From the NCBI RefSeq assembly GCF_943733665.1, contig NZ_OX030782.1:186001-250000 (forward strand): DNA of 64,000 nucleotides, in the 5' to 3' direction. The stretch is from Aquimarina sp. Aq107. Lineage in GTDB: Bacteria > Bacteroidota > Bacteroidia > Flavobacteriales > Flavobacteriaceae. The stretch's first letter is position 1; every line of letters begins with the position of its first letter. Position numbers and translations under genes: made by a program. Below the pieces are notes generated by a model. The model was not told the origin of the DNA, ran no database searches, and saw nothing but the letters and a program-made list of their open reading frames with translations. Below, piece by piece: positions 6,550-50,033 of the stretch.

Positions 6550-7659
6550 CTACCTATTCACAGAGAATATGTCTTTCAATTGTTTTACCATTCCACCATT
6601 ACCGGATAGAGTTATTTCACCTATTTTATCAGCGATTTTCTCTACATATTCCATTTCTTTTAATTTGTAGAGCATTTCGTTATCTTCCATTAGTTTTGCT
6701 GTATTCAGTAAACTTCTAGTAGATGCTGTTTCCTCACGTCTAGTAATGATATTAGCCTGAGCTCTCTTTTGTGCTACTAGTACCTGGTTCATGATTTCTT
6801 TCATTTCGCCAGTTAAGATTATATCCCTAATACCACAATTCAATACTCTTACACCTAGTTTGTTTGTTTGATTTTTGGTAGTTTCCAATATAGCTTCTGC
6901 CATACTATCTTTACGTTCCAAAAGTTCATCTAAGGTGTAATTCCCTACGAAAGCTCTAAGAGCTAATTGCATCGCGATGTATAATTGTTTTTCGTATTCT
7001 TTATTATCAAGCAATGCTTTTTCAATATCTACAACTTTATATTGTATGTAGAAATTGATACGAATTGCAGCTTTATCTTTTGTCAATAATTCTTGACCAG
7101 CTATTTCTAACTGTAGCTGACGCAGATCTGCCTTAGCGATCTTGATAGTTGTATCATTTCTCCAGAAACGATATGTGCCACTACCTAAAGTTTTAGCGTA
7201 TACATCATCTACAATGAGTACAGCTTTTTCATACGCGGCAACTTCAAAAACTCGGATGTATTTATTAAGTGCGTAATTGCTGAATAAAGATTTATCAATT
7301 TTCTCGGTAATATAGATTTTACTAAGATCTACTGTTGTAAACTCATATTCGTACAATCCTTTCCAAAGTGTGTATCTACCTGCAGAAAATACACTTTTAA
7401 AGTTACCATTCTCATAAACCAATACAATTTGATTATCCTTTACCTCAATTAGGTGTAACATATCTTCCAACACTGTATCTTTTAATAAGAGTTCCAGTGC
7501 TATTGGAGCTGCAAAGGGTTTAGATAAATCATACTGAATAACACGCTCATTAAATCTTAACCAATGGATTCCTTGTGTTATAACACGATTGTAATCTCCT
7601 TTTCTGAAAACCAAGCCTACTTTGCCAGCATTGATTCTTACTCTTTTCATTTTTTTCAT
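6550..7659 (-). CDS. Slipin / SPFH (band 7) family protein
   Basis: 369 residues. The N-terminal third holds three copies of a beta-rich motif: GKVGLVFRKGDYNRVITQG near 12, NQIVLVYENGNFKSVFSAG near 75 and KAVLIVDDVYAKTLGSG near 144. An SPFH domain (about 165-310, with KDKAAIRINFYIQYKV and the RAFVGNYTLDELLERK helix) and a coiled C-terminal helix follow. There is no clear membrane helix. SPFH proteins oligomerise into membrane-associated rings, and slipins have been described beside RNA-repair genes in several bacteria. Here the gene is the distal end of a tRNA/tRNA-like locus on the same strand. The ATG at 7659 follows an A-rich leader. The role is inferred from context only. Confidence 0.88.
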   Translation of the reverse strand: MKKMKRVRINAGKVGLVFRKGDYNRVITQGIHWLRFNERVIQYDLSKPFAAPIALELLLKDTVLEDMLHLIEVKDNQIVLVYENGNFKSVFSAGRYTLWKGLYEYEFTTVDLSKIYITEKIDKSLFSNYALNKYIRVFEVAAYEKAVLIVDDVYAKTLGSGTYRFWRNDTTIKIAKADLRQLQLEIAGQELLTKDKAAIRINFYIQYKVVDIEKALLDNKEYEKQLYIAMQLALRAFVGNYTLDELLERKDSMAEAILETTKNQTNKLGVRVLNCGIRDIILTGEMKEIMNQVLVAQKRAQANIITRREETASTRSLLNTAKLMEDNEMLYKLKEMEYVEKIADKIGEITLSGNGGMVKQLKDIFSVNR

Positions 7660-8044
7660 TTTTATGTCTTTTTATTTGAAAAAGACAGATTCAACATTAA
7701 TTGGACGATAATCCCGTAACGGAGGTGTTATCTATTTCCTTTTATACGTATTAAGGATGTTTGTTTTTTTGTTAAAAACGGTGACAGCAAATCATCTTTC
7801 CAGATCGGAGAAAATAATATGTGATATTTTCTGCAATTAGTTTTTAGTATCGAGATAGAAGAATAAGTATTAGAAAAAATACGATTGTTCTAAAATCTGG
7901 ACTCAAAAAAGTAATTACTTCTTAGTACCAACCTTTTTAATTTCTCAAAGAACCTTTAAGATTGTTCTTATCCCTAGAGTAGCATAAGAACTGATCTACT
8001 AGTCAACGTTTTTGTCATTTTTACAGCCTGACAAGCCGTGGATT
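7660..8044. other. Intergenic segment between slipin gene and tRNA-like cluster
   Basis: No ORF is supported. The minus strand carries hairpins, for example GTTCTTAT/ATAAGAAC around 7961-7995. A TGGACTCAAAA sequence near 7897 is the inverse complement of the anticodon-loop region of the Leu(CAA)-like fragment near 8083, so the transcript could pair over about 170 nt. No classical intrinsic terminator was seen, so read-through from the tRNA-like genes into the slipin gene is possible. Confidence 0.5.
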
Positions 8045-8097
8045 AGTTTTAGAAGATAACCCGAACTTCTTGAAAACGGATTTTGAGTCCATTTTGG
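8045..8097 (-). pseudogene. tRNA-Leu(CAA)-like 3' portion, degenerate
   Basis: Directly follows the Lys 5' half. It contains an anticodon arm (ATGGA, loop CTCAAAA, TCCGT; anticodon CAA) and a T-arm-like hairpin (AGAAG/CTTCT), but the T loop has 10 nt instead of 7. There is no 5' acceptor or D arm before it, and no complementary acceptor strand downstream. It may be the 3' half of a third split or permuted gene whose partner was lost, or decayed tRNA sequence. Confidence 0.5.
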
Positions 8098-8174
8098 CTA
8101 CATTAAAAGTGTAGTGCTCTACCTACTGAGCTACAAAGCAAATGGCGCTTTGACGGGAATCGAACCCGCGACAA
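8098..8174 (-). tRNA. Circularly permuted tRNA-Lys(UUU): 3' half precedes 5' half
   Basis: On the minus strand the 3' half comes first (8174-8145, positions 44-73: variable TTGTC, T arm GCGGG-TTCGATT-CCCGT, acceptor CAAAGCG, C73). A 4-nt linker (8144-8141) follows, then the 5' half (8140-8098, positions 1-43: TGCTTTG, TA, GCTC-AGTAGGTA-GAGC, CTACA-CTTTTAA-TGTAG). Reordered, it is a 73-nt cloverleaf with all conserved positions (T8, A14, G18G19, A21, T33, TTC, A58). The stems are complete except for wobbles T1:G72 and G49:T65. In linear order the acceptor does not pair with any normal partner. CCA is not encoded. Confidence 0.75.
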
Positions 8175-8180
8175 CCAACT

Positions 8181-8253
8181 AGTCTGTTGTTCTAACCACT
8201 GAACTATCTGCCTTAGGCAGAGTGGGAGTCGAACCCACGACCTACAGAGTCGA
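8181..8253 (-). tRNA. Circularly permuted tRNA-Arg(UCG): halves directly abut
   Basis: The 3' half (8253-8214, positions 34-73: anticodon TCG, stem TCTGT, variable AGGTC, T arm GTGGG-TTCGACT-CCCAC, acceptor TCTGCCT, A73) is followed without a linker by the 5' half (8213-8181, positions 1-33: AGGCAGA, TA, GTTC-AGTGGTTA-GAAC, A, ACAGA, CT). Reordered it is exactly 73 nt, with 21 of 21 stem pairs Watson-Crick and all invariant bases present. Six nt separate it from the Lys 3' half. The join lies inside the anticodon loop, so the anticodon assignment depends on the exact junction. CCA is not encoded. Confidence 0.75.
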
Positions 8254-8339
8254 GACTATTATTTGGTTAATAGTCAAACCTTCAAGGCAAGTTGGATATG
8301 AAGTGATCATACAAATCTGCAATACTTCATACAATAGTG

Positions 8340-8672
8340 CTATACAGAAACACCCAACAAGACTTGCTTGATATTTTTAAAGAGTTCAATAAATTTTTCT
8401 TTTGAAGCGCAATGGTTCAAAATTGAACTACTCATAAGCTTTAAGGGATTTGTATTTATAAATAAAATGGTCTCATCTATATTGGATAGGACGTCTTTAG
8501 AATTATAAAAAGAAATAGTTTTTTCTATATGTTCTTTTGAAAAATCAAAAGCATCAATTCCACAGCATTCAGCAACACAGTATGTTTCTAAATCTCTCCA
8601 AAATTCTTTATTGTTTTCTAAGAATTGATCTATATCAATAACTTTAGATATTTTTTTAGTACTCATAATCAT
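8340..8672 (-). CDS. Small conserved-looking protein (DUF6331-like), unknown function
   Basis: 110 residues from the ATG at 8672 (MIMSTKK; an ATG at 8666 is also possible, and a TTG at 8684 gives 114 residues but sits against a hairpin). The sequence is acidic and helical with a conserved-looking core, LETYCVAECCGIDAFDF. That core reminds me of the DUF6331 family, an assignment I cannot verify here. There is no signal peptide. It lies upstream of the permuted tRNAs on the same strand, downstream of an operator/promoter shared with rtcB and the 76-aa ORF, and after a terminator-like hairpin. The context points to RNA metabolism; the function is unknown. Confidence 0.7.
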   Translation of the reverse strand: MIMSTKKISKVIDIDQFLENNKEFWRDLETYCVAECCGIDAFDFSKEHIEKTISFYNSKDVLSNIDETILFINTNPLKLMSSSILNHCASKEKFIELFKNIKQVLLGVSV

Positions 8673-8686
8673 GTTTTTTATCAAAA

Positions 8687-8722
8687 GCCCTGCTATTTAT
8701 TTCCCTCACTTAATAGCAGGGC
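8687..8722 (-). terminator. Terminator-like hairpin in the leader of the 110-aa gene
   Basis: Perfect 11-bp stem GCCCTGCTATT/AATAGCAGGGC followed on the minus strand by TTTTG. It lies about 15 nt before the ATG of the 110-aa gene and about 50 nt after the mapped-by-eye promoter. It could end transcripts coming from the array or act as an attenuator for this gene and the downstream tRNA-like cluster. Confidence 0.6.
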
Positions 8723-8781
8723 ATTACTACAAACCCTAATCTGTTTACCCCTTATAAAAGAGGGTTTGTTTAATTACTCTG

Positions 8782-8819
8782 CAAATATTTATTATATGAG
8801 CGCAATGTATTTGCGTAGT
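8782..8819 (-). promoter_or_regulatory. Shared operator/promoter, copy 1
   Basis: On the minus strand, ACTACGCAAA (8819-8810) and the opposing TTGCG half-site (8805-8801) are followed by AATATTTG, whose TTTG occupies 8785-8782. The distance from ACTACGCAAA to TTTG (24 nt) is identical at 49996-50033 and 60382-60419. No TTG sits at the normal -33 position; the dyad occupies it, which suggests control by a DNA-binding regulator. Confidence 0.75.
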
Positions 8820-9017
8820 AATTATTTATTTGTAAAAAAATCGATTTTGATCATTTTTACTACTTGGGGTATCTGTATCATGATACAGCGCTTTGGTCAT
8901 ACTATTGATATACATAGTAGCCCATTTTAAAAGTAAATGTTGTAAGCCATTTGTTCCCTTTCTTTTGATAATCGTTGGTTGTGTTTTCATGATATTAGTT
9001 TTTACATCATTTGTTAT

Positions 9018-9338: not shown

Positions 9339-9359
9339 AGTTTAAAGTTTAATTGTTAG

Positions 9360-9432
9360 TGGAACAGATAGGATTTGAACCTATATCTTCGGATCTTCAA
9401 TCCGACGCATTGACCAACTTTGCTACTATTCC
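9360..9432 (-). tRNA. tRNA-Phe(GAA)
   Basis: 73 nt. Acceptor GGAATAG/CTGTTCC (one wobble), anticodon arm TCGGA-TTGAAGA-TCCGA, T arm ATAGG-TTCAAAT-CCTAT, A73. CCA is not encoded. The D stem is weak. Seven nt separate it from tRNA-His. Confidence 0.9.
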
Positions 9433-9438
9433 TTTTAG

Positions 9439-9511
9439 GGTGTACTCCGGGACTTGAACCCTGTTCTTCTCATTCACAGTGAGATGCTTTACCAGATAAG
9501 CTAGAGACACC
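9439..9511 (-). tRNA. tRNA-His(GUG)
   Basis: Anticodon arm TCTCA-CTGTGAA-TGAGA. The extra 5' G can pair with C73, the tRNA-His identity feature. The acceptor has two mismatches near its base (C5:T68, C7:A66) and the T stem has one, so folding is poorer than for a normal housekeeping tRNA. CCA is not encoded. Confidence 0.85.
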
Positions 9512-9595
9512 ATTTTCTAATTTTAGAGTATTTGATTTTCAGAGTATTGATAAATAATTCTTTATATTAGTCCGTAAGATTAGAAAACAAGTTTT

Positions 9596-10453
9596 ATGGA
9601 TAATATATCGACCATTGTTTTAGCTGCATCCTTATTTATTATAATGTTAGGTATGGGGTTATCTCTTGTTATAGATGATTTTAAGAGAATACTTATTTAT
9701 CCTAAAGCAATTTTGGTTGGTTTAGCGAATCAGCTTATAGTCTTACCACTTGTAGGTTTTCTGTTAGCATCTGTGCTATCGCTAAAACCGGAAATAGCTA
9801 TTGGAATTATGATATTAGCAGCCTGTCCAGGTGGAGCGACTTCTAATTTGATTTCTCATTTAGCTAAAGGAGACATTGCATTATCTGTAACGCTTACAGC
9901 ATTTAGTAGTTTGATAACGATAATTACGATACCGTTCATAGTTAATTTTTCGTTACTTTACTTTTTATCAGAGGATCAAACTATTCAATTAAATGTAATT
10001 GAAACTATTATTCAGATTTTAGTTATAATTATTATACCTGTTGCTATTGGCATGATCATAAGAAAGTATAATGAGTCTTTTGCATTAAAGATGGCTAAAC
10101 CGGTAAAAATAGCTTCAGCATTGGTACTTGCTTTAGTTATTGTTGGTATTCTTATTAAAGAGAAAGACAATTTCATTTTTTATTTTAAAGAAGCTGGTCT
10201 TGTCGCTTTATTATTGAATATTTTGACAATGGCTATTGGTTATTATTCTGCAAAGCTATTTCGTGTTCATCAAAAAGGCGCCATATCTATCGGAATAGAA
10301 TCTGGTATTCAAAATGGTACTTTGGCGATAACCGTTGCAATTGCTATACTTCATAATACTTCTTTTGCAATTGCTCCAGCCGTATATAGTCTGTTAATGT
10401 TTTTTACAGGTGGGATCGCAATATTTTTTGGTATTCGAAATAGTAAAAAATAA
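9596..10453 (+). CDS. Bile acid:sodium symporter (BASS) family transporter
   Basis: 285 residues and about nine or ten membrane helices. The BASS-family signature ILAACPGGATSNLISHLAKGD (near 78, shown in part) and the second crossing region GIESGIQNGTLA (near 231) are both visible. The ATG at 9596 gives full length. It is the only plus-strand gene inside the tRNA locus and splits it into two blocks, so it is probably an insertion rather than part of the array. The substrate is unknown; family members carry bile acids, pantoate or other organic anions with sodium. Confidence 0.9.
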   Translation: MDNISTIVLAASLFIIMLGMGLSLVIDDFKRILIYPKAILVGLANQLIVLPLVGFLLASVLSLKPEIAIGIMILAACPGGATSNLISHLAKGDIALSVTLTAFSSLITIITIPFIVNFSLLYFLSEDQTIQLNVIETIIQILVIIIIPVAIGMIIRKYNESFALKMAKPVKIASALVLALVIVGILIKEKDNFIFYFKEAGLVALLLNILTMAIGYYSAKLFRVHQKGAISIGIESGIQNGTLAITVAIAILHNTSFAIAPAVYSLLMFFTGGIAIFFGIRNSKK

Positions 10454-10493
10454 AGTACTATATATTGACCTTCTTTTTATGAATTGATAGTAA

Positions 10494-10565
10494 CTAAGGC
10501 ATTGGGAATCGAACCCAAGACTTCCGCGATATAGCCGCGGCACTCTGCCACTGAGTTATACCTTA
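10494..10565 (-). tRNA. tRNA-Ile(UAU)-like, with C33
   Basis: Complete cloverleaf: acceptor TAAGGTA/TGCCTTA, D arm ACTC-AGTGGCA-GAGT, anticodon arm CCGCG-GCTATAT-CGCGG, T arm TTGGG-TTCGATT-CCCAA. The loop reads G32 C33 T34 A35 T36, so the anticodon is UAU (AUA codon), but the nearly invariant U33 is C. CCA is not encoded. Confidence 0.75.
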
Positions 10566-10616
10566 GTTTGATGACCTGAAAGGATTACTCATTAGGTCAA
10601 TATTTGATAATTTTGT
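10566..10616. other. Spacer with hairpin inside the tRNA array
   Basis: On the minus strand TGACCT and AGGTCA (10569-10600) form a 6-bp stem with a long loop. There is no recognisable tRNA arm and no ORF. Confidence 0.4.
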
Positions 10617-10690
10617 ACTTGTGAATGCTTGGCATTTCGAACCTTTACACCAAGAGTCAAAGTCTTGGATGCTGCCGTTACATCACAGGT
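10617..10690 (-). tRNA. tRNA-Gln(UUG)-like, degenerate
   Basis: Good anticodon arm CAAGA-CTTTGAC-TCTTG and a recognisable D region (GTAACGGCAGC). Acceptor strands CCTGTGA/TCACAAG pair at six of seven positions. The linker between acceptor and D stem is short and the T stem does not close normally (GG-TTCGAAAT-GCC only). It is probably decayed or an unusual decoy. Confidence 0.55.
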
Positions 10691-10697
10691 TAGTTTG

Positions 10698-10769
10698 TAA
10701 GCTCAATAGGAGTCGAACCTATACTTCAAGGGTCGTAACCTTGGGTGCTTCCATTTACACCATGAGCCT
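10698..10769 (-). tRNA. tRNA-Arg(ACG)
   Basis: Acceptor AGGCTCA/TGAGCTT with one wobble, D arm GTGT-AAATGGAA-GCAC, anticodon arm CAAGG-TTACGAC-CCTTG, T arm ATAGG-TTCGACT-CCTAT, A73. The body resembles tRNA-Arg(UCU) and Trp of the same array. CCA is not encoded. Confidence 0.9.
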
Positions 10770-10775
10770 TTCTTG

Positions 10776-10891
10776 TACTCCACCTAAGATTCGAACTTAG
10801 ACTGAACCGGGTTTAAACCTGAGCTTCGCTCGCAATCTTCGATAAAGCGTTGCTTTTTCTCGCCTGTCTCTGCCATTTGGGCTAGCGGAGC
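10776..10891 (-). tRNA. tRNA-Leu(UAA) interrupted by a roughly 40-nt insertion
   Basis: The ends are intact: acceptor GCTCCGC/GTGGAGT, T arm CTAAG-TTCGAAT-CTTAG, A73. The anticodon region is GG-TTTAAAC-CC (anticodon UAA). About 40-45 extra nt lie between the D arm and the anticodon arm (about 10818-10862 on the plus strand), with local hairpins GAGC-GAA-GCTC and GCAA/TTGC and flanking CAGG repeats. The variable region is short for tRNA-Leu. It may be an intron-like insertion needing splicing, or a pseudogene. Confidence 0.7.
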
Positions 10892-10896
10892 ATTTA

Positions 10897-10969
10897 TACA
10901 GGAAGAGAGATTCGAACTCTCAAGATCTTGATTCTAAGTCAAGCGCGTATGCCGTTCCGCCATTCCTGC
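10897..10969 (-). tRNA. tRNA-Leu(UAG) with short variable loop
   Basis: Acceptor GCAGGAA/TTCCTGT, anticodon arm CTTGA-CTTAGAA-TCAAG, T arm GAGAG-TTCGAAT-CTCTC. The variable region is only 5 nt, whereas bacterial tRNA-Leu normally has a long variable arm. The D stem is 3 bp. CCA is not encoded. Confidence 0.85.
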
Positions 10970-10979
10970 ATTAAAATTG

Positions 10980-11052
10980 TACTCTGTAGGAGAATCGAAC
11001 TCCTATTTCCTCATAGAAAGTGAGGTGTACTAAACCATTATACGAACAGAGC
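10980..11052 (-). tRNA. tRNA-Glu(UUC)
   Basis: Acceptor GCTCTGT/ACAGAGT (G1:T72), D arm GTAT-AATGGTTTA-GTAC, anticodon arm CCTCA-CTTTCTA-TGAGG, T arm AGGAG-TTCGATT-CTCCT, A73. CCA is not encoded. Confidence 0.9.
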
Positions 11053-11057
11053 ATTTG

Positions 11058-11129
11058 TATATCTACTAAGACTTGAACTTAGACTTAGGGATTAGAAATC
11101 CCTTGTGCTTCCAATTACACCATAGATAT
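11058..11129 (-). tRNA. tRNA-Arg(UCU)
   Basis: Acceptor ATATCTA/TAGATAT (fully paired), D arm GTGT-AATTGGAA-GCAC, anticodon arm AGGGA-TTTCTAA-TCCCT, T arm CTAAG-TTCAAGT-CTTAG, A73. CCA is not encoded. Confidence 0.9.
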
Positions 11130-11135
11130 AACTTT

Positions 11136-11219
11136 AGACCGAGAAACAGAGTTGTCTCTGTTTTCTTAGAGAGTCTAGGCTTGAACTCATTATTGTTAGT
11201 TTCAAAATGAGTTAATTTG
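11136..11219. other. Hairpin-rich spacer in the array, possible tRNA relic
   Basis: Two perfect inverted repeats are present: AAACAGAG/CTCTGTTT (8 bp) and AACTCATT/AATGAGTT (8 bp), plus a TTCAAGC T-loop-like string. No cloverleaf can be drawn in linear or permuted order. Confidence 0.4.
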
Positions 11220-11293
11220 TCTGAGAAGCAGGATTCGAACCTGCGACCTCTCGCGTCCAAGGCGAGTAAACAAAACCACCGTTATCTTCCCAG
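11220..11293 (-). tRNA. tRNA-Pro(UGG)
   Basis: Acceptor CTGGGAA/TTCTCAG (one wobble), anticodon arm CTCGC-CTTGGAC-GCGAG, variable AGGTC, T arm GCAGG-TTCGAAT-CCTGC, A73. The D stem is weak (TAAC/GTTT, 3 pairs). CCA is not encoded. Confidence 0.9.
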
Positions 11294-11301
11294 ATTTATA
11301 G

Positions 11302-11439
11302 CGGAAGAAGTGGGAGTCGAACCCACACGAGTCATTAGCTCCTAACAGTTTTAACTCCTGTTTTCTATTGCCGTTTTGGTGTCGTTGAATCGCAAGCTTA
11401 TTTCAAGACTGCGGCCACCACCTATTGGCTTGCTCTTCC
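11302..11439 (-). tRNA. tRNA-Ser(UGA) with 51-nt insertion in the anticodon loop
   Basis: Acceptor GGAAGAG/TTCTTCC, D stem GCC/GGC, T arm GTGGG-TTCGACT-CCCAC, G73, and a serine-type long variable arm (GAG/CTC). Anticodon-stem strands GCAGT and ACTGT are separated by the loop CTTGAAA plus 51 extra nt (11350-11400). The insertion sits directly 3' of the anticodon at or next to positions 37-39, the classical position of archaeal and eukaryotic tRNA introns. Removing it gives a complete class II tRNA-Ser. Confidence 0.8.
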
Positions 11440-11447
11440 GTTTTTTA

Positions 11448-11510
11448 GCAGTATCGACGGGATTCCCTTCCACCTAGCTCAGGATAAACTTCTCATCCCG
11501 AATCCTGCTT
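11448..11510 (-). pseudogene. tRNA 3'-end fragment related to tRNA-Asp
   Basis: The end AATCCCGTCGATACTGC differs by one base from the 3' end of the adjacent tRNA-Asp (AATCCCGTCGGTACTGC). The rest has no D or anticodon arm, only GGAT/ATCC and GGG/CCC hairpins. It looks like a partial duplication of tRNA-Asp that has decayed. Confidence 0.6.
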
Positions 11511-11512
11511 TG

Positions 11513-11585
11513 CAGTACCGACGGGATTCGAACCCGCGACCTTCCGAGAGACAGTCGGGTGCACTAGCCACTGTGCTACGATACT
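11513..11585 (-). tRNA. tRNA-Asp(GUC)
   Basis: Acceptor AGTATCG/CGGTACT (one wobble), D arm GCAC-AGTGGCTA-GTGC, anticodon loop CTGTCTC, T arm GCGGG-TTCGAAT-CCCGT, G73. One anticodon-stem pair (C27:A43) is broken. CCA is not encoded. Confidence 0.9.
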
Positions 11586-11632
11586 ATATTCCTAAATAGA
11601 TAGGAGTCTTTAATTTTATAATTTGTATTTAG

Positions 11633-11703
11633 CGCGCTTACTAGGATTTGAACCCAGATTAAAGATTTTGGAGACCTTTGTGCTACCATTACACTAAAAG
11701 CGC
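11633..11703 (-). tRNA. tRNA-Trp(CCA)
   Basis: Acceptor GCGCTTT/TAAGCGC (T7:T66 unpaired), D arm GTGT-AATGGTA-GCAC, anticodon arm AAGGT-CTCCAAA-ATCTT, T arm CTGGG-TTCAAAT-CCTAG, G73. The 3' CCA is not encoded. Confidence 0.9.
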
Positions 11704-11720
11704 CTTATTATTATATTTAG

Positions 11721-11803
11721 TGGAAGTAGTAGGACTCGAACCTACAAGCTCCGAAGAGACCAGATTTACAGTCTGGTGAGCCAACCAATTGCTCAATACT
11801 TCC
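11721..11803 (-). tRNA. tRNA-Tyr(GUA)
   Basis: Class II tRNA: acceptor GGAAGTA/TACTTCC, anticodon arm CCAGA-CTGTAAA-TCTGG, long variable arm (TCTCTTCGGAGCT), T arm GTAGG-TTCGAGT-CCTAC, A73. CCA is not encoded. Confidence 0.95.
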
Positions 11804-11812
11804 ATTTTTTAG

Positions 11813-11885
11813 AGACAAGAACAGGAATCGAACCTGTAAAAAACGGAGTTGCAGTCCGTAGCCTTAACCATTCAGCCACCTTGTC
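11813..11885 (-). tRNA. tRNA-Cys(GCA)
   Basis: Acceptor GACAAGG/TCTTGTC, anticodon arm ACGGA-CTGCAAC-TCCGT, T-rich variable loop, T arm ACAGG-TTCGATT-CCTGT, T73 (the Cys identity base). CCA is not encoded. Confidence 0.9.
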
Positions 11886-11889
11886 TTAG

Positions 11890-11962
11890 CGATACCAGTA
11901 GGATTTGAACCCACATCTTAAGAGTTAACAGCTCTTAGCTTTACCAGTTAAGCTATAGTATC
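11890..11962 (-). tRNA. tRNA-Asn(GUU)
   Basis: Acceptor GATACTA/TGGTATC, D arm GCTT-AACTGGTA-AAGC, anticodon arm AAGAG-CTGTTAA-CTCTT, T arm GTGGG-TTCAAAT-CCTAC, G73. CCA is not encoded. Confidence 0.92.
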
Positions 11963-11969
11963 AGTATTG

Positions 11970-12056
11970 CGGAGGACAAAGGAATTGAACCTTCACTGTG
12001 ATTAGACAGACTTGTTTAGCAGACAAGCGCAACAAACCAATATTTGCCTATCCTCC
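11970..12056 (-). tRNA. tRNA-Ser(GCU)
   Basis: Class II tRNA: acceptor GGAGGAT/GTCCTCC, anticodon arm CTTGT-CTGCTAA-ACAAG, variable arm CTGT/ACAG, T arm GAAGG-TTCAATT-CCTTT, G73. CCA is not encoded. Confidence 0.92.
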
Positions 12057-12062
12057 TTAAAG

Positions 12063-12135
12063 TTGACACAGAGGGATTTGAACCCACATCACCTCGATTA
12101 AAAGTCGAGTGCTTTTCCAATTAAGCTACGTGTCA
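12063..12135 (-). tRNA. tRNA-Lys(UUU), first gene of the array
   Basis: Acceptor TGACACG/TGTGTCA, D arm GCTT-AATTGGAA-AAGC, anticodon arm CTCGA-CTTTTAA-TCGAG, T arm GTGGG-TTCAAAT-CCCTC (one mismatch), A73. It is the most upstream tRNA, 40 nt after an intrinsic terminator. No separate promoter was seen in that gap. CCA is not encoded. Confidence 0.92.
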
Positions 12136-35073: not shown

Positions 35074-35769
35074 TTAATTTTTTAATTCGTTGCGTAAATC
35101 TTTTTTTAATTGTTGTCGATTGGACGCATACGATTGTTTTTTATGTTCCTTTTTAAAATCAGTACCCTTAAAAACTCTAATTGGGTTACCACGCTGTATA
35201 TTCAAGTGATTTTCCCATTGATCAGATAATGATTTTTGTAATTTGGTAAGCTGACTTTGATTTACTTTTTCTTTTAATCGTTCTATTGCGATTTTTTTAT
35301 TTTGATGTTGTGATCTACTGTCCATAACTACTACCTGATCACCTGTAGGATGATAGGTAGCACGAACGGCAGAATTTACTTTGTTTACATTTTGACCACC
35401 AGGACCTGAACTCCGCATTGCCTGAAAAGAAATGTCTTTTTCTTTTATAGCTATGGTTTGTTCCTGTTTTACTTCATACATCCCGATAAACCAGTTTTTT
35501 CGTTTATGATGCTTCCTAAATTTAGAAGTACCAATCCATTGAATGGTTCCTATCCAGTTTCCTAAAAAATGGTCTATTTCTTTTCCCTTTAATTGTATGG
35601 TCGCAGATTGTACGGTTCCATTTTCAGTACCTTGTTCTCGCTGCAGTATGCTGTATGTATATCCGCTATTTTTAATTTCTTCCAGAAATAGTTTCAATAC
35701 CTGAGCTACAACCCAGCCACATTCTGCAGGTCCTCTTCCGGCCGTTATTTGAATTATTTTAGTTTTCAT
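35074..35769 (-). CDS. prfH: Peptide chain release factor H
   Basis: 231 residues. The family N-terminus AGRGPAECGWVVAQVL is followed by the release-factor catalytic domain with SGPGGQNVNKVNSAVRA (GGQ at 124-126) and a basic tail. PrfH proteins lack a codon-recognition domain and are encoded with RtcB2. In published work the pair rescues and repairs ribosomes whose 16S rRNA is cut in the decoding centre. Here rtcB lies 59 nt upstream with a hairpin between. Confidence 0.92.
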   Translation of the reverse strand: MKTKIIQITAGRGPAECGWVVAQVLKLFLEEIKNSGYTYSILQREQGTENGTVQSATIQLKGKEIDHFLGNWIGTIQWIGTSKFRKHHKRKNWFIGMYEVKQEQTIAIKEKDISFQAMRSSGPGGQNVNKVNSAVRATYHPTGDQVVVMDSRSQHQNKKIAIERLKEKVNQSQLTKLQKSLSDQWENHLNIQRGNPIRVFKGTDFKKEHKKQSYASNRQQLKKDLRNELKN

Positions 35770-35790
35770 TATTTCTTTTCTTTTTTAAAC

Positions 35791-35825
35791 ATTGAGGAGT
35801 TTTTTGATTCATTAAACTCCTCAAT
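35791..35825 (-). promoter_or_regulatory. 12-bp hairpin between rtcB and prfH
   Basis: ATTGAGGAGTTT/AAACTCCTCAAT separated by 11 nt, in the rtcB-prfH gap. It has no clean T-run on the minus strand (TGTTTAAAAAAG), so a processing or stability element is more likely than a terminator. Confidence 0.6.
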
Positions 35826-35828
35826 ATT

Positions 35829-37220
35829 TTACTTATCCATTCGCACGATTTTTGGTGTAAATGTTCCTACTACCTCAACTAATTCTTGTTGATTAGCCAT
35901 TACTTTAGTAATATCCTTGTAAGCCATAGGTGCTTCATCAATTCCTCCACCAATTAGTGTAACATCATTTACTTTTAATTCTTTTTTAATATCACTCTTG
36001 GTAAATTTCTCTTTACACTTTCTTCTGGAATGTAATCTTCCAGCTCCGTGTGATGCAGATTGCAAACTTTCTGGGTTTCCTAATCCTCTCACTATAAATC
36101 CTAGAGCTGTCATAGATCCCGGAATAATTCCTAGCTCGCCTTTTGCAGCAGGAGTAGCTCCTTTTCTATGCACGATACACTCCTCGCCGTTTACTTCTTG
36201 TTTCCAAGCAAAATTGTGATGATTTTCAATTTTTACAACCGGTCGTGATCCCAATAATTTTCCGATTCTGGCATGAATATCATCGTGACATGCTTGCGCA
36301 TAATCTCCAGCAAGATTCATTGCTAACCAATATTCCTGACCATCGTGCGTATTTAGATCTAACCAAGCTAATTGTTGTACGTGCTTTGGCAATGGACATT
36401 GTTTGGTTGCTAAATAAGTATAGTGTTTTGCAATATTGGCTCCCAATCCTCTGGAACCACTATGTGATAGCACACCTATATACGTACCTACATCCAATCC
36501 CCATTCATTTTCTGTATCTGTAATAGCTACAGTTCCAAATTCTACAAAATGATTACCACCACCAGATGTTCCCAATTGTTTATATGCTTTGTCTTTCAAT
36601 CTTTTTACTAGAGGTATGTTCTTAAACTCTTCTCTTTCAAAGATTTCATGATCATGCTTTATTTTATGGGTTTCATACATCCCGAATTTGGTGTGCTCAG
36701 ACAATATGTTTTCCAATTGATGCTTTTTCCCTTTTAAATAGGAGATAGCAATCGGATAAATTGTTAGACACATTCTACATCCGATATCTACTCCAACTCC
36801 GTATGGAATCACTGCATTTTTTGTGGCAAGCACTCCGCCAATAGGCAAACCATATCCGCTATGTGCATCTGGCATTAAAGCTCCCGCAACTGCTACTGGT
36901 AACTTGAGTGCATCATACAATTGGTATTTTGCTTGCTCATCGATTTCATTTTCGCCATAAATCTGAAATGGTGATCTGGTAGTTTTTAAAGCGTGTTTTT
37001 TTACTTCCACTGGCTTTAGTAAACTCTCAGCAATCTTACCCCATACGCCATCACCTTGATAGGCTTCTGGATTTAATAATACTTTTTTGGCTTCTATTAA
37101 TATGTGTTCTTTTTTTACTCTTTTTTGATATCGATTAATCTGACCCAATGTCACATTAATACTATTGTTTTTTGGAAAGCCTAATTTGATTAAGTCTTTT
37201 CCGCTTAATTTCTTTCCCAT
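35829..37220 (-). CDS. rtcB: RNA-splicing ligase RtcB, PrfH-linked
   Basis: 463 residues. Manganese and guanylation residues are in place: GVGVDIGCRMC (Asp145, Cys148), GGGNHF (Asn223, His224), SHSGSRG (His253), ENHHNF (His335 region), SHGAGR (His391, the expected GMP-linked histidine). RtcB joins 2',3'-cyclic phosphate (or 3'-phosphate) and 5'-OH RNA ends using GTP. Its start overlaps the upstream basic protein by 16 nt. It is sequence-distinct from the second RtcB at 48578-49975. Confidence 0.95.
   Translation of the reverse strand: MGKKLSGKDLIKLGFPKNNSINVTLGQINRYQKRVKKEHILIEAKKVLLNPEAYQGDGVWGKIAESLLKPVEVKKHALKTTRSPFQIYGENEIDEQAKYQLYDALKLPVAVAGALMPDAHSGYGLPIGGVLATKNAVIPYGVGVDIGCRMCLTIYPIAISYLKGKKHQLENILSEHTKFGMYETHKIKHDHEIFEREEFKNIPLVKRLKDKAYKQLGTSGGGNHFVEFGTVAITDTENEWGLDVGTYIGVLSHSGSRGLGANIAKHYTYLATKQCPLPKHVQQLAWLDLNTHDGQEYWLAMNLAGDYAQACHDDIHARIGKLLGSRPVVKIENHHNFAWKQEVNGEECIVHRKGATPAAKGELGIIPGSMTALGFIVRGLGNPESLQSASHGAGRLHSRRKCKEKFTKSDIKKELKVNDVTLIGGGIDEAPMAYKDITKVMANQQELVEVVGTFTPKIVRMDK

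Positions 37221-48577: not shown

Positions 48578-50033
<1,456 letters not shown>

Follow-up and report, generated by a model that had tools for sequence, protein, structure and literature searches.

In the 64,000-nt stretch of Aquimarina sp. Aq107 analysed here (the window), part of a 5.5-Mb genome assembled in one contig, two adjacent units on the minus strand resemble tRNAs whose halves have changed places. What are they? An earlier note, made from the sequence alone, had read them as two circularly permuted tRNA genes whose ends RtcB could join, with fragments left by deletions between tandem tRNA genes as the main alternative.

The permuted units and the RNA around them

Both units were found where the earlier note had placed them, in circularly permuted order from 8253 to 8098 on the minus strand. 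The 3' half of the "Arg" unit (8253-8214) is followed by its 5' half (8213-8181) and, after 6 nt, by the "Lys" 3' half (8174-8145), 4 nt (CATT) and the "Lys" 5' half (8140-8098). The "Arg" halves abut as described (TCTGCCT-A-AGGCAGA), and the reordered unit, read from the sequence, has 21 Watson-Crick pairs (7+4+5+5). A permuted tRNA gene is recognized by a 3' half, a short intervening sequence and a 5' half that together rebuild a cloverleaf, and this arrangement is present here. The "Lys" unit, read in the same way, would make a poor tRNA, with a U-G wobble at pair 1-72 and a C as discriminator. The statement that no cloverleaf forms in linear order stood only in part: ARAGORN calls no tRNA there, but the Rfam tRNA model matches the linear stretch 8133-8076 at 34.2 bits (gathering score, 29), without an acceptor stem.

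Very probably, the two units are modules of one structured tRNA-mimic RNA. Both belong to a larger predicted structured RNA, at about 8380-7890 on the minus strand, with the following parts:

8249..8374, minus: conserved 5' domain of the predicted RNA (model R2, 137.5 bits; training member)
8254..8275, minus: hairpin GACTATT..AATAGTC directly 5' of module 1, which covaries (columns 104-125 of alignment A4)
8183..8248, minus: module 1 ("Arg"; R1, 82.8 bits, training member; YrlA, 46.0 bits at 8246-8182)
8098..8169, minus: module 2 ("Lys"; YrlA, 43.3 bits at 8177-8109; R1, 50.8 bits)
8073..8095, minus: extra hairpin with anticodon-like loop CTCAAAA, read from the sequence and mostly within the linear Rfam tRNA match
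7890..8072, minus: remaining 3' part, with no defined end, recognizable in the displayed relatives

The 5' domain comprises a closing helix, a GTGTT..AGCAC hairpin and a long hairpin, and its range also takes in the hairpin preceding module 1. It is structured, with 37 predicted pairs, 14 of which have changes on both sides in the 30-locus alignment A4. Module 1 runs from the anticodon-stem 3' strand through the T-arm, a capped acceptor hairpin and the D-arm to the anticodon-stem 5' strand, and module 2 runs from the T-arm through the acceptor hairpin and the D-arm to an intact anticodon-like arm with the loop CTTTTAA. Folded as a single sequence, 7890-8384 has a lower minimum free energy than each of 100 shuffles (z = -3.85). 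In this fold, both modules show their T-arm, acceptor hairpin and D-arm, but module 1 lacks its closing anticodon stem. Aligning the 3' part across relatives gave no consensus fold. A search for the Bacteroidota-type promoter pattern returned 0 matches, which is uninformative with 0.4 expected.

Modules and loops across the relatives

The earlier note had also held that chance was unlikely and that related genomes should be searched for the same order. Our parser counted a module where a T-arm, an acceptor hairpin and a D-arm followed one another in the permuted arrangement, with at least 5 acceptor pairs. Its input was 63 loci, namely 87 minus 24 that were duplicates, had an incomplete or broken RNA or had been fetched for other reasons. 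The parser found 128 modules in these loci, while letter-shuffling gave 51 in 1260 segments, in agreement with the note that chance is unlikely. The permuted order recurs in the relatives with covarying stems. Outside the RNA, tRNA arrays included, it found 97 modules in 412,433 nt. By the same parser, the 63 loci carry two modules in 40 cases, three in 12 and one in 11. In nine of them, module 1 was not placed by the parser; R1 later matched it in all 63 sources, directly behind the 5' domain and at no less than 52 bits, 27 of these being training members. An R1 score alone proves no module, since ordinary tandem tRNAs score too (tRNA-Thr, 62.8 bits; tRNA-Met, 57.2 bits). In the displayed part of the loci, inspected by eye, the plan is a conserved 5' domain, a short hairpin, permuted tRNA-like modules and a 3' part; locus L067 is broken after the hairpin.

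For module 1, the alignment (A1) holds 27 of 54 sequences; the other 27 were left out, 14 because of long linkers and 13, judged by eye, because of a shifted stem register or a 3-bp D-stem, an omission that favours the fit. Within it, 98.0% of cells are paired, and double changes occur in 14 of 21 pairs, all 7 acceptor pairs included. The covariation score is 0.511, compared with 0.208 in shuffled alignments and 0.05-0.18 in slid controls, and one of the five measures, further pair types, is not unusual, as 56 of 500 shuffles reach the same number. For modules 2 and 3, the alignment (A3) holds 32 of the 66 modules with an anticodon arm, those with at least 6 acceptor pairs, a linker of at most 11 nt and a GAGC D-arm. 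Here, 99.6% of cells are paired, double changes occur in 13 of 21 pairs, covariation reaches 0.484 versus 0.172 shuffled, and no shuffle attains any of the five measures. The rows of these alignments are related species, and consequently their cells are not independent events. Acceptor strands taken in linear order pair at chance level (2.53 of 7 in 64 neighbours), and tRNAs in linear order were rejected for this reason; within 127 modules, the mean is 6.51 of 7, 5 of which the parser had demanded. On this comparative evidence, selection acts on the permuted fold at the RNA level.

The loops speak differently from the stems. Joining module 1 at 33/34 would give a loop in which 27 of 54 relatives show U33, 38 show purine 37 and 26 show the two together; the triplet would take 21 forms, so that module 1 has no conserved anticodon. 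The anticodon-like loops of the later modules have U33 in 65 of 66 cases and purine 37 in all 66, and their triplets take 16 values, such as CAT (15), TTT (13), TAG (9), GAA (7) and GTT (5); stop-reading triplets are among them (TTA in 4 and TCA in 1 of the 66). Fixed U33 and purine 37 around a changing triplet indicate a loop that is kept as an anticodon loop, while its decoding identity is not kept. The two fixed positions could partly be inherited from parent tRNAs, and when the reordered modules were compared with the ordinary tRNAs of their loci, the best matches were mixed. Thus, the permutation that the earlier note described is genuine, with stems that covary in relatives, whereas a conserved decoding anticodon loop after joining, the other mark of a permuted tRNA gene, was not found, and tRNA genes with joined ends are unsupported.

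Capping of the acceptor stem is widespread, by at most 5 nt in 91 of 127 modules, and 7 modules have no linker at all, which leaves no discriminator base. Taken alone, short caps are a weak argument, because an intervening sequence of 1 nt occurs in an archaeal permuted tRNA gene, according to an excerpt of PMC3978253.

Distribution and gene neighbourhood

With the 271 bases around the units as query, strong matches (E < 1e-22) were obtained in 19 congeners (loci L002-L020). The pattern of the 5' flank was found in 61 contigs with titles naming 14 genera, a few being titled only Flavobacteriaceae or Bacteroidetes. Aquimarina latercula DSM 2041 and Aquimarina amphilecti DSM 25232 are among the strains with such contigs. 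Six of the 14 genera were confirmed as Flavobacteriaceae by look-up, and the remaining eight presumably belong there as well. By the 5' domain model R2, the RNA is present in 28 of 299 family genomes, the window's genome counted, and in 5 of 345 genomes of a class-wide draw, all five Flavobacteriaceae. These R2 counts serve as the distribution; the R1 genome counts (203/299) do not, because ordinary tandem tRNAs, at up to 62.8 bits, swell them. Likewise, a tally of 61/66 at E 0.01 consists mostly of plain tRNA matches and was not used. A phage origin was rejected, as phage records gave no match to window positions 7600-9000 and the pattern is absent from viral contigs.

The neighbours of the RNA in the window are as follows:

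6550..7659, minus: slipin/Band_7 gene directly downstream (Pfam PF01145, 106.5 bits)
9359..12135, minus: upstream array of 14 ordinary tRNA genes (ARAGORN)
35074..35769, minus: PrfH-like RF-1 domain gene beside RtcB1 (Pfam PF00472, 85.1 bits)
35829..37220, minus: RtcB1 (Pfam PF01139, 279.5 bits), with homologues in the loci of relatives
48578..49975, minus: RtcB2, a second RtcB homologue (Pfam PF01139, 133.2 bits)

Slipin is the constant neighbour. It lies downstream of the RNA in 52 of the 53 loci whose downstream sequence spans 1300 nt or more, all except L067, and no contained ORF of at least 80 aa intervenes in any of the 55 loci with both. Same-strand tRNAs lie upstream in 38 of the 43 loci having at least 2500 nt upstream, and in 13 of 61 loci a tRNA gene ends 28 or 37 nt before the RNA motif. 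The genes upstream of the RNA vary among loci, and gene cassettes seem to have been swapped in just upstream of it. An ORF of the DUF6331 type (window 8340-8684, minus) runs into the 5' domain and stops roughly 2 nt inside the TATA motif there; the same was seen in several relatives, and most loci have no such ORF.

The window has two RtcB genes, in line with the earlier note. In the relatives, RtcB and/or PrfH homologues accompany 22 of 61 loci, all on the strand of the RNA, and none was found in the other 39, within a stretch of up to 8 kb. Gene orders include RtcB1, PrfH, tRNAs, RNA, slipin (L034) and tRNA, RNA, slipin, RtcB2 (L028), and in several relatives RtcB2 comes next after slipin among the genes looked for. 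In the window itself, the RtcB and PrfH genes share the strand of the tRNA array but lie 23 to 38 kb away from it. RtcB is therefore a genuine same-strand neighbour in relatives, while its proposed role in joining the ends is unsupported.

The name PrfH is inferred from the RF-1 domain and the RtcB neighbour. The RtcB1 and RF-1-domain pair (35074-37220, minus), found also in some relatives, resembles the rRNA-repair pair RtcB2-PrfH. In the excerpts available of PMC9223846, that pair protects E. coli from colicin E3 and reportedly gives it no protection against tRNA-targeting toxins.

The tRNA array has features of its own. It is split by a sodium/bile-acid symporter-type gene (9596-10453, plus) and contains odd tRNA-like stretches without an ARAGORN call (10620-10690, 10800-10880, 11222-11291 and 11345-11520, minus). 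One of these is Rfam-positive as tRNA (11291-11222, 33.7 bits), and an apparent Asp remnant was noted by eye; two others, also by eye, have complementary ends and long inserts.

Kinship with Y RNAs and possible function

Y RNAs are tRNA mimics with one such permuted domain and work with Ro60. The bacterial YrlA family (Rfam RF02553) matches module 1 with an E value of 1.1e-8 and module 2 with 6.8e-8. Its gathering score of 69 bits is reached by neither unit and by none of the 299 family genomes, and sub-threshold matches are unspecific, occurring at E 1e-4 in 62 of 299 family genomes and in 4 of 14 controls, E. coli and B. subtilis among them. Consequently, the likeness rests on topology and covariation, not on the score. 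As to the basal stem that binds Ro60, the matches on the two modules span only positions 23-88 of the 114 in the model, and one placement in the genome scan is full-length, at 46.5 bits. What is shared is the permuted tRNA-like effector module, that is, a T-arm, a capped acceptor stem and a D-arm closed by an equivalent of the anticodon stem. RNA-repair loci with RtcB in some bacteria are a further likeness (excerpts of PMC7790460 and PMC8394870). By topology, the RNA is a novel variety of Y-RNA tRNA mimic. It differs from YrlA in several ways: the modules are mostly 2-3 in tandem, part of them bearing an anticodon-like arm, the conserved 5' domain is another one, and the RNA stands between a tRNA array and slipin. 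Its scores also stay below gathering, and Ro60 is rare (1/299 family genomes). It was not filed as YrlA, as it lacks the presence of Ro60 and the gathering score.

The TROVE (Ro60) domain had no match in the window's own genome. The one family genome with a match is 81% complete, lies in 610 contigs and belongs to the 28 genomes that R2 detects, here at 50.6 bits. An 8.5-kb contig, L094, carries in order a tRNA array, a divergent RNA with permuted modules, slipin, tRNA-Leu, tRNA-His and a Ro60 gene of 507 aa (TROVE, 112.5 bits, plus a Ro60-type vWA domain, vWA_Ro60). Another locus, L098, has a more divergent version, with module 1 at 68.1 bits and no R2 match, and slipin and RtcB homologues immediately downstream of it. 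With these two loci in view, the RNA plausibly represents a Y-RNA branch that for the most part does without Ro60.

The excerpts of published work on YrlA indicate what such a module can do. Its tRNA-like domain mimics the D-, T- and acceptor arms and is modified by DusA and TruB, and YrlA tethers PNPase to the Ro60 homologue Rsr (PMC8394870). In Salmonella, rtcB and YrlA share an RNA-repair operon, and YrlA was proposed there as a possible competitive inhibitor of an anticodon nuclease; in the same excerpts, YrlA itself is uncut by that nuclease (PMC7790460). Loss of the repressor TrcR in Anabaena leads to a joint rise of rtcB, a slipin gene and a silent tRNA operon (PMC10272220). These are the same three gene types as here and are tied to translational stress, but in Anabaena they are scattered genes under one repressor, and the excerpted text mentions no tRNA-mimic RNA (PMC10272220).

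We favour, at a probability of roughly 55%, the reading that the units are tandem tRNA-mimicking modules of one large Y-RNA-type RNA, which would act unspliced and likely as a bait or tether for tRNA-handling proteins. The RNA would be transcribed with the tRNA array and/or slipin upon translation damage. Its capped acceptor stems would prevent charging, and its D-arm, T-arm and anticodon-like loops would display several alternative tRNA surfaces. A nuclease, a modifying enzyme or a decay enzyme would then encounter the mimic ahead of the real tRNAs or alongside them; the tRNA array would replace cut RNAs, and RtcB would repair them. The step to which this proposal commits is that the RNA would serve as a decoy or handle for anticodon-loop enzymes. 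Two published points count against the mimic reading, the uncut Salmonella YrlA (PMC7790460) and the reported lack of RtcB2-PrfH protection against tRNA-targeting toxins (PMC9223846). A narrower form of the proposal, which we offer tentatively, is that this Ro60-independent branch of the Y RNAs may be a decoy against tRNA-cutting toxins, with several permuted unchargeable heads whose anticodon loops can be exchanged, and with its gene accompanied by those for RNA ligases, a ribosome-rescue factor, slipin and a spare set of tRNAs.

The main rival of the mimic reading is a cis-acting leader of the slipin mRNA, whose modules would sense a nuclease, a tRNA-binding protein or stress and alter slipin transcription or translation; we consider it rather unlikely. 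The constant closeness of slipin fits a leader equally well, with the gene following in 52 of 53 testable loci, no ORF of at least 80 aa between in 55 of 55, and slipin staying constant while the genes upstream of the RNA vary. Moreover, tRNA-like folds can regulate in cis, as in the yjdF riboswitch, which also places a tRNA-like element ahead of a gene (excerpt of PMC9142559). That riboswitch is a single unit and is not described in the excerpt as a natural permutation (PMC9142559), and Rfam gave no yjdF match here. Against a leader, 13 of 61 loci have a tRNA gene just 28 or 37 nt ahead of the RNA motif, module number and triplets vary strongly, unlike in a usual aptamer, and in the window about 230 nt separate 7890, the end of the folded stretch, from the slipin start. 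Improbable in our judgement is a charged RNA in several pieces, like two-piece tmRNA, with acceptor stems opened by RNase P and 3' enzymes and the charged parts held together by other stems. The permuted gene order is that of two-piece tmRNA (excerpt of PMC3978253), which likewise holds a permuted tRNA-like domain inside a larger bacterial RNA, and ACCA follows the 3' acceptor strand in some modules. On the contrary, several modules are present here, their acceptor linkers are at most 5 nt in 91 of 127 cases and absent in 7, and the tmRNA model reaches 19 bits where gathering requires 47, on which tmRNA itself was rejected; an ordinary tmRNA is present in one locus, L030.

The reading of the earlier note, in which RtcB would join the cut ends of two permuted tRNA genes to yield decoding tRNA-Arg and tRNA-Lys, is more improbable still. 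The full reconstitution in the window, the RtcB genes linked to the locus in relatives and the 26 of 54 would-be joined module-1 loops with U33 and purine 37 speak for such genes. In the permuted tRNA genes of red and green algae and archaea, the 3' half likewise precedes the 5' half with a short intervening sequence (excerpt of PMC3978253). The algal genes give circular and then linear tRNAs with a working anticodon, whereas here neither anticodon nor triplet is conserved: the other 28 of the 54 module-1 loops do not combine U33 with purine 37, 21 triplets occur overall, and the triplets of later modules change freely, some being stop-reading. Furthermore, the units follow a conserved structured 5' domain and look like modules of one larger RNA, and both match, below the gathering score, YrlA, which has the same permuted topology and works without ligation. 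Debris from deletions between tandem tRNA genes, which the earlier note had already disfavoured, is scarcely credible. Tandem tRNAs suffice to produce a permuted look, as the R1 scores of true ones show (62.8 and 57.2 bits), but the stems covary, with double changes in 14 of 21 and 13 of 21 pairs, and the same plan recurs behind the same 5' domain in contigs naming 13 genera. Among Rfam families (GOLLD, ROOL, yjdF and the like), only tRNA had a gathering-score match in the window, and the open-licence literature, the scope of our search as opposed to subscription papers, held no description of this Flavobacteriaceae RNA among the matches listed.

If the favoured mimic reading is true, a multi-headed and mostly Ro60-less relative of the Y RNAs would show the purpose of tRNA mimicry, slipin would gain an RNA partner, and the idea of a Y RNA as a nuclease decoy becomes directly testable. 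For annotation, apparent permuted tRNA genes in bacteria can be mimic modules or plain tandem tRNAs.

Two minor observations concern the loci. The Rfam sRNA Flavo-1 lies near slipin or RtcB, on either strand, in 4 of 18 scanned loci (L028, L036, L040 and L064), and also in the Ro60-bearing locus (L094:3749-3819). Tandem tRNA-Met and tRNA-Thr genes are a trap for searches for permuted tRNAs: the four tandem tRNA-Met genes at L100:531-932 and the three tandem tRNA-Thr genes at L099:622-931 look permuted between copies.
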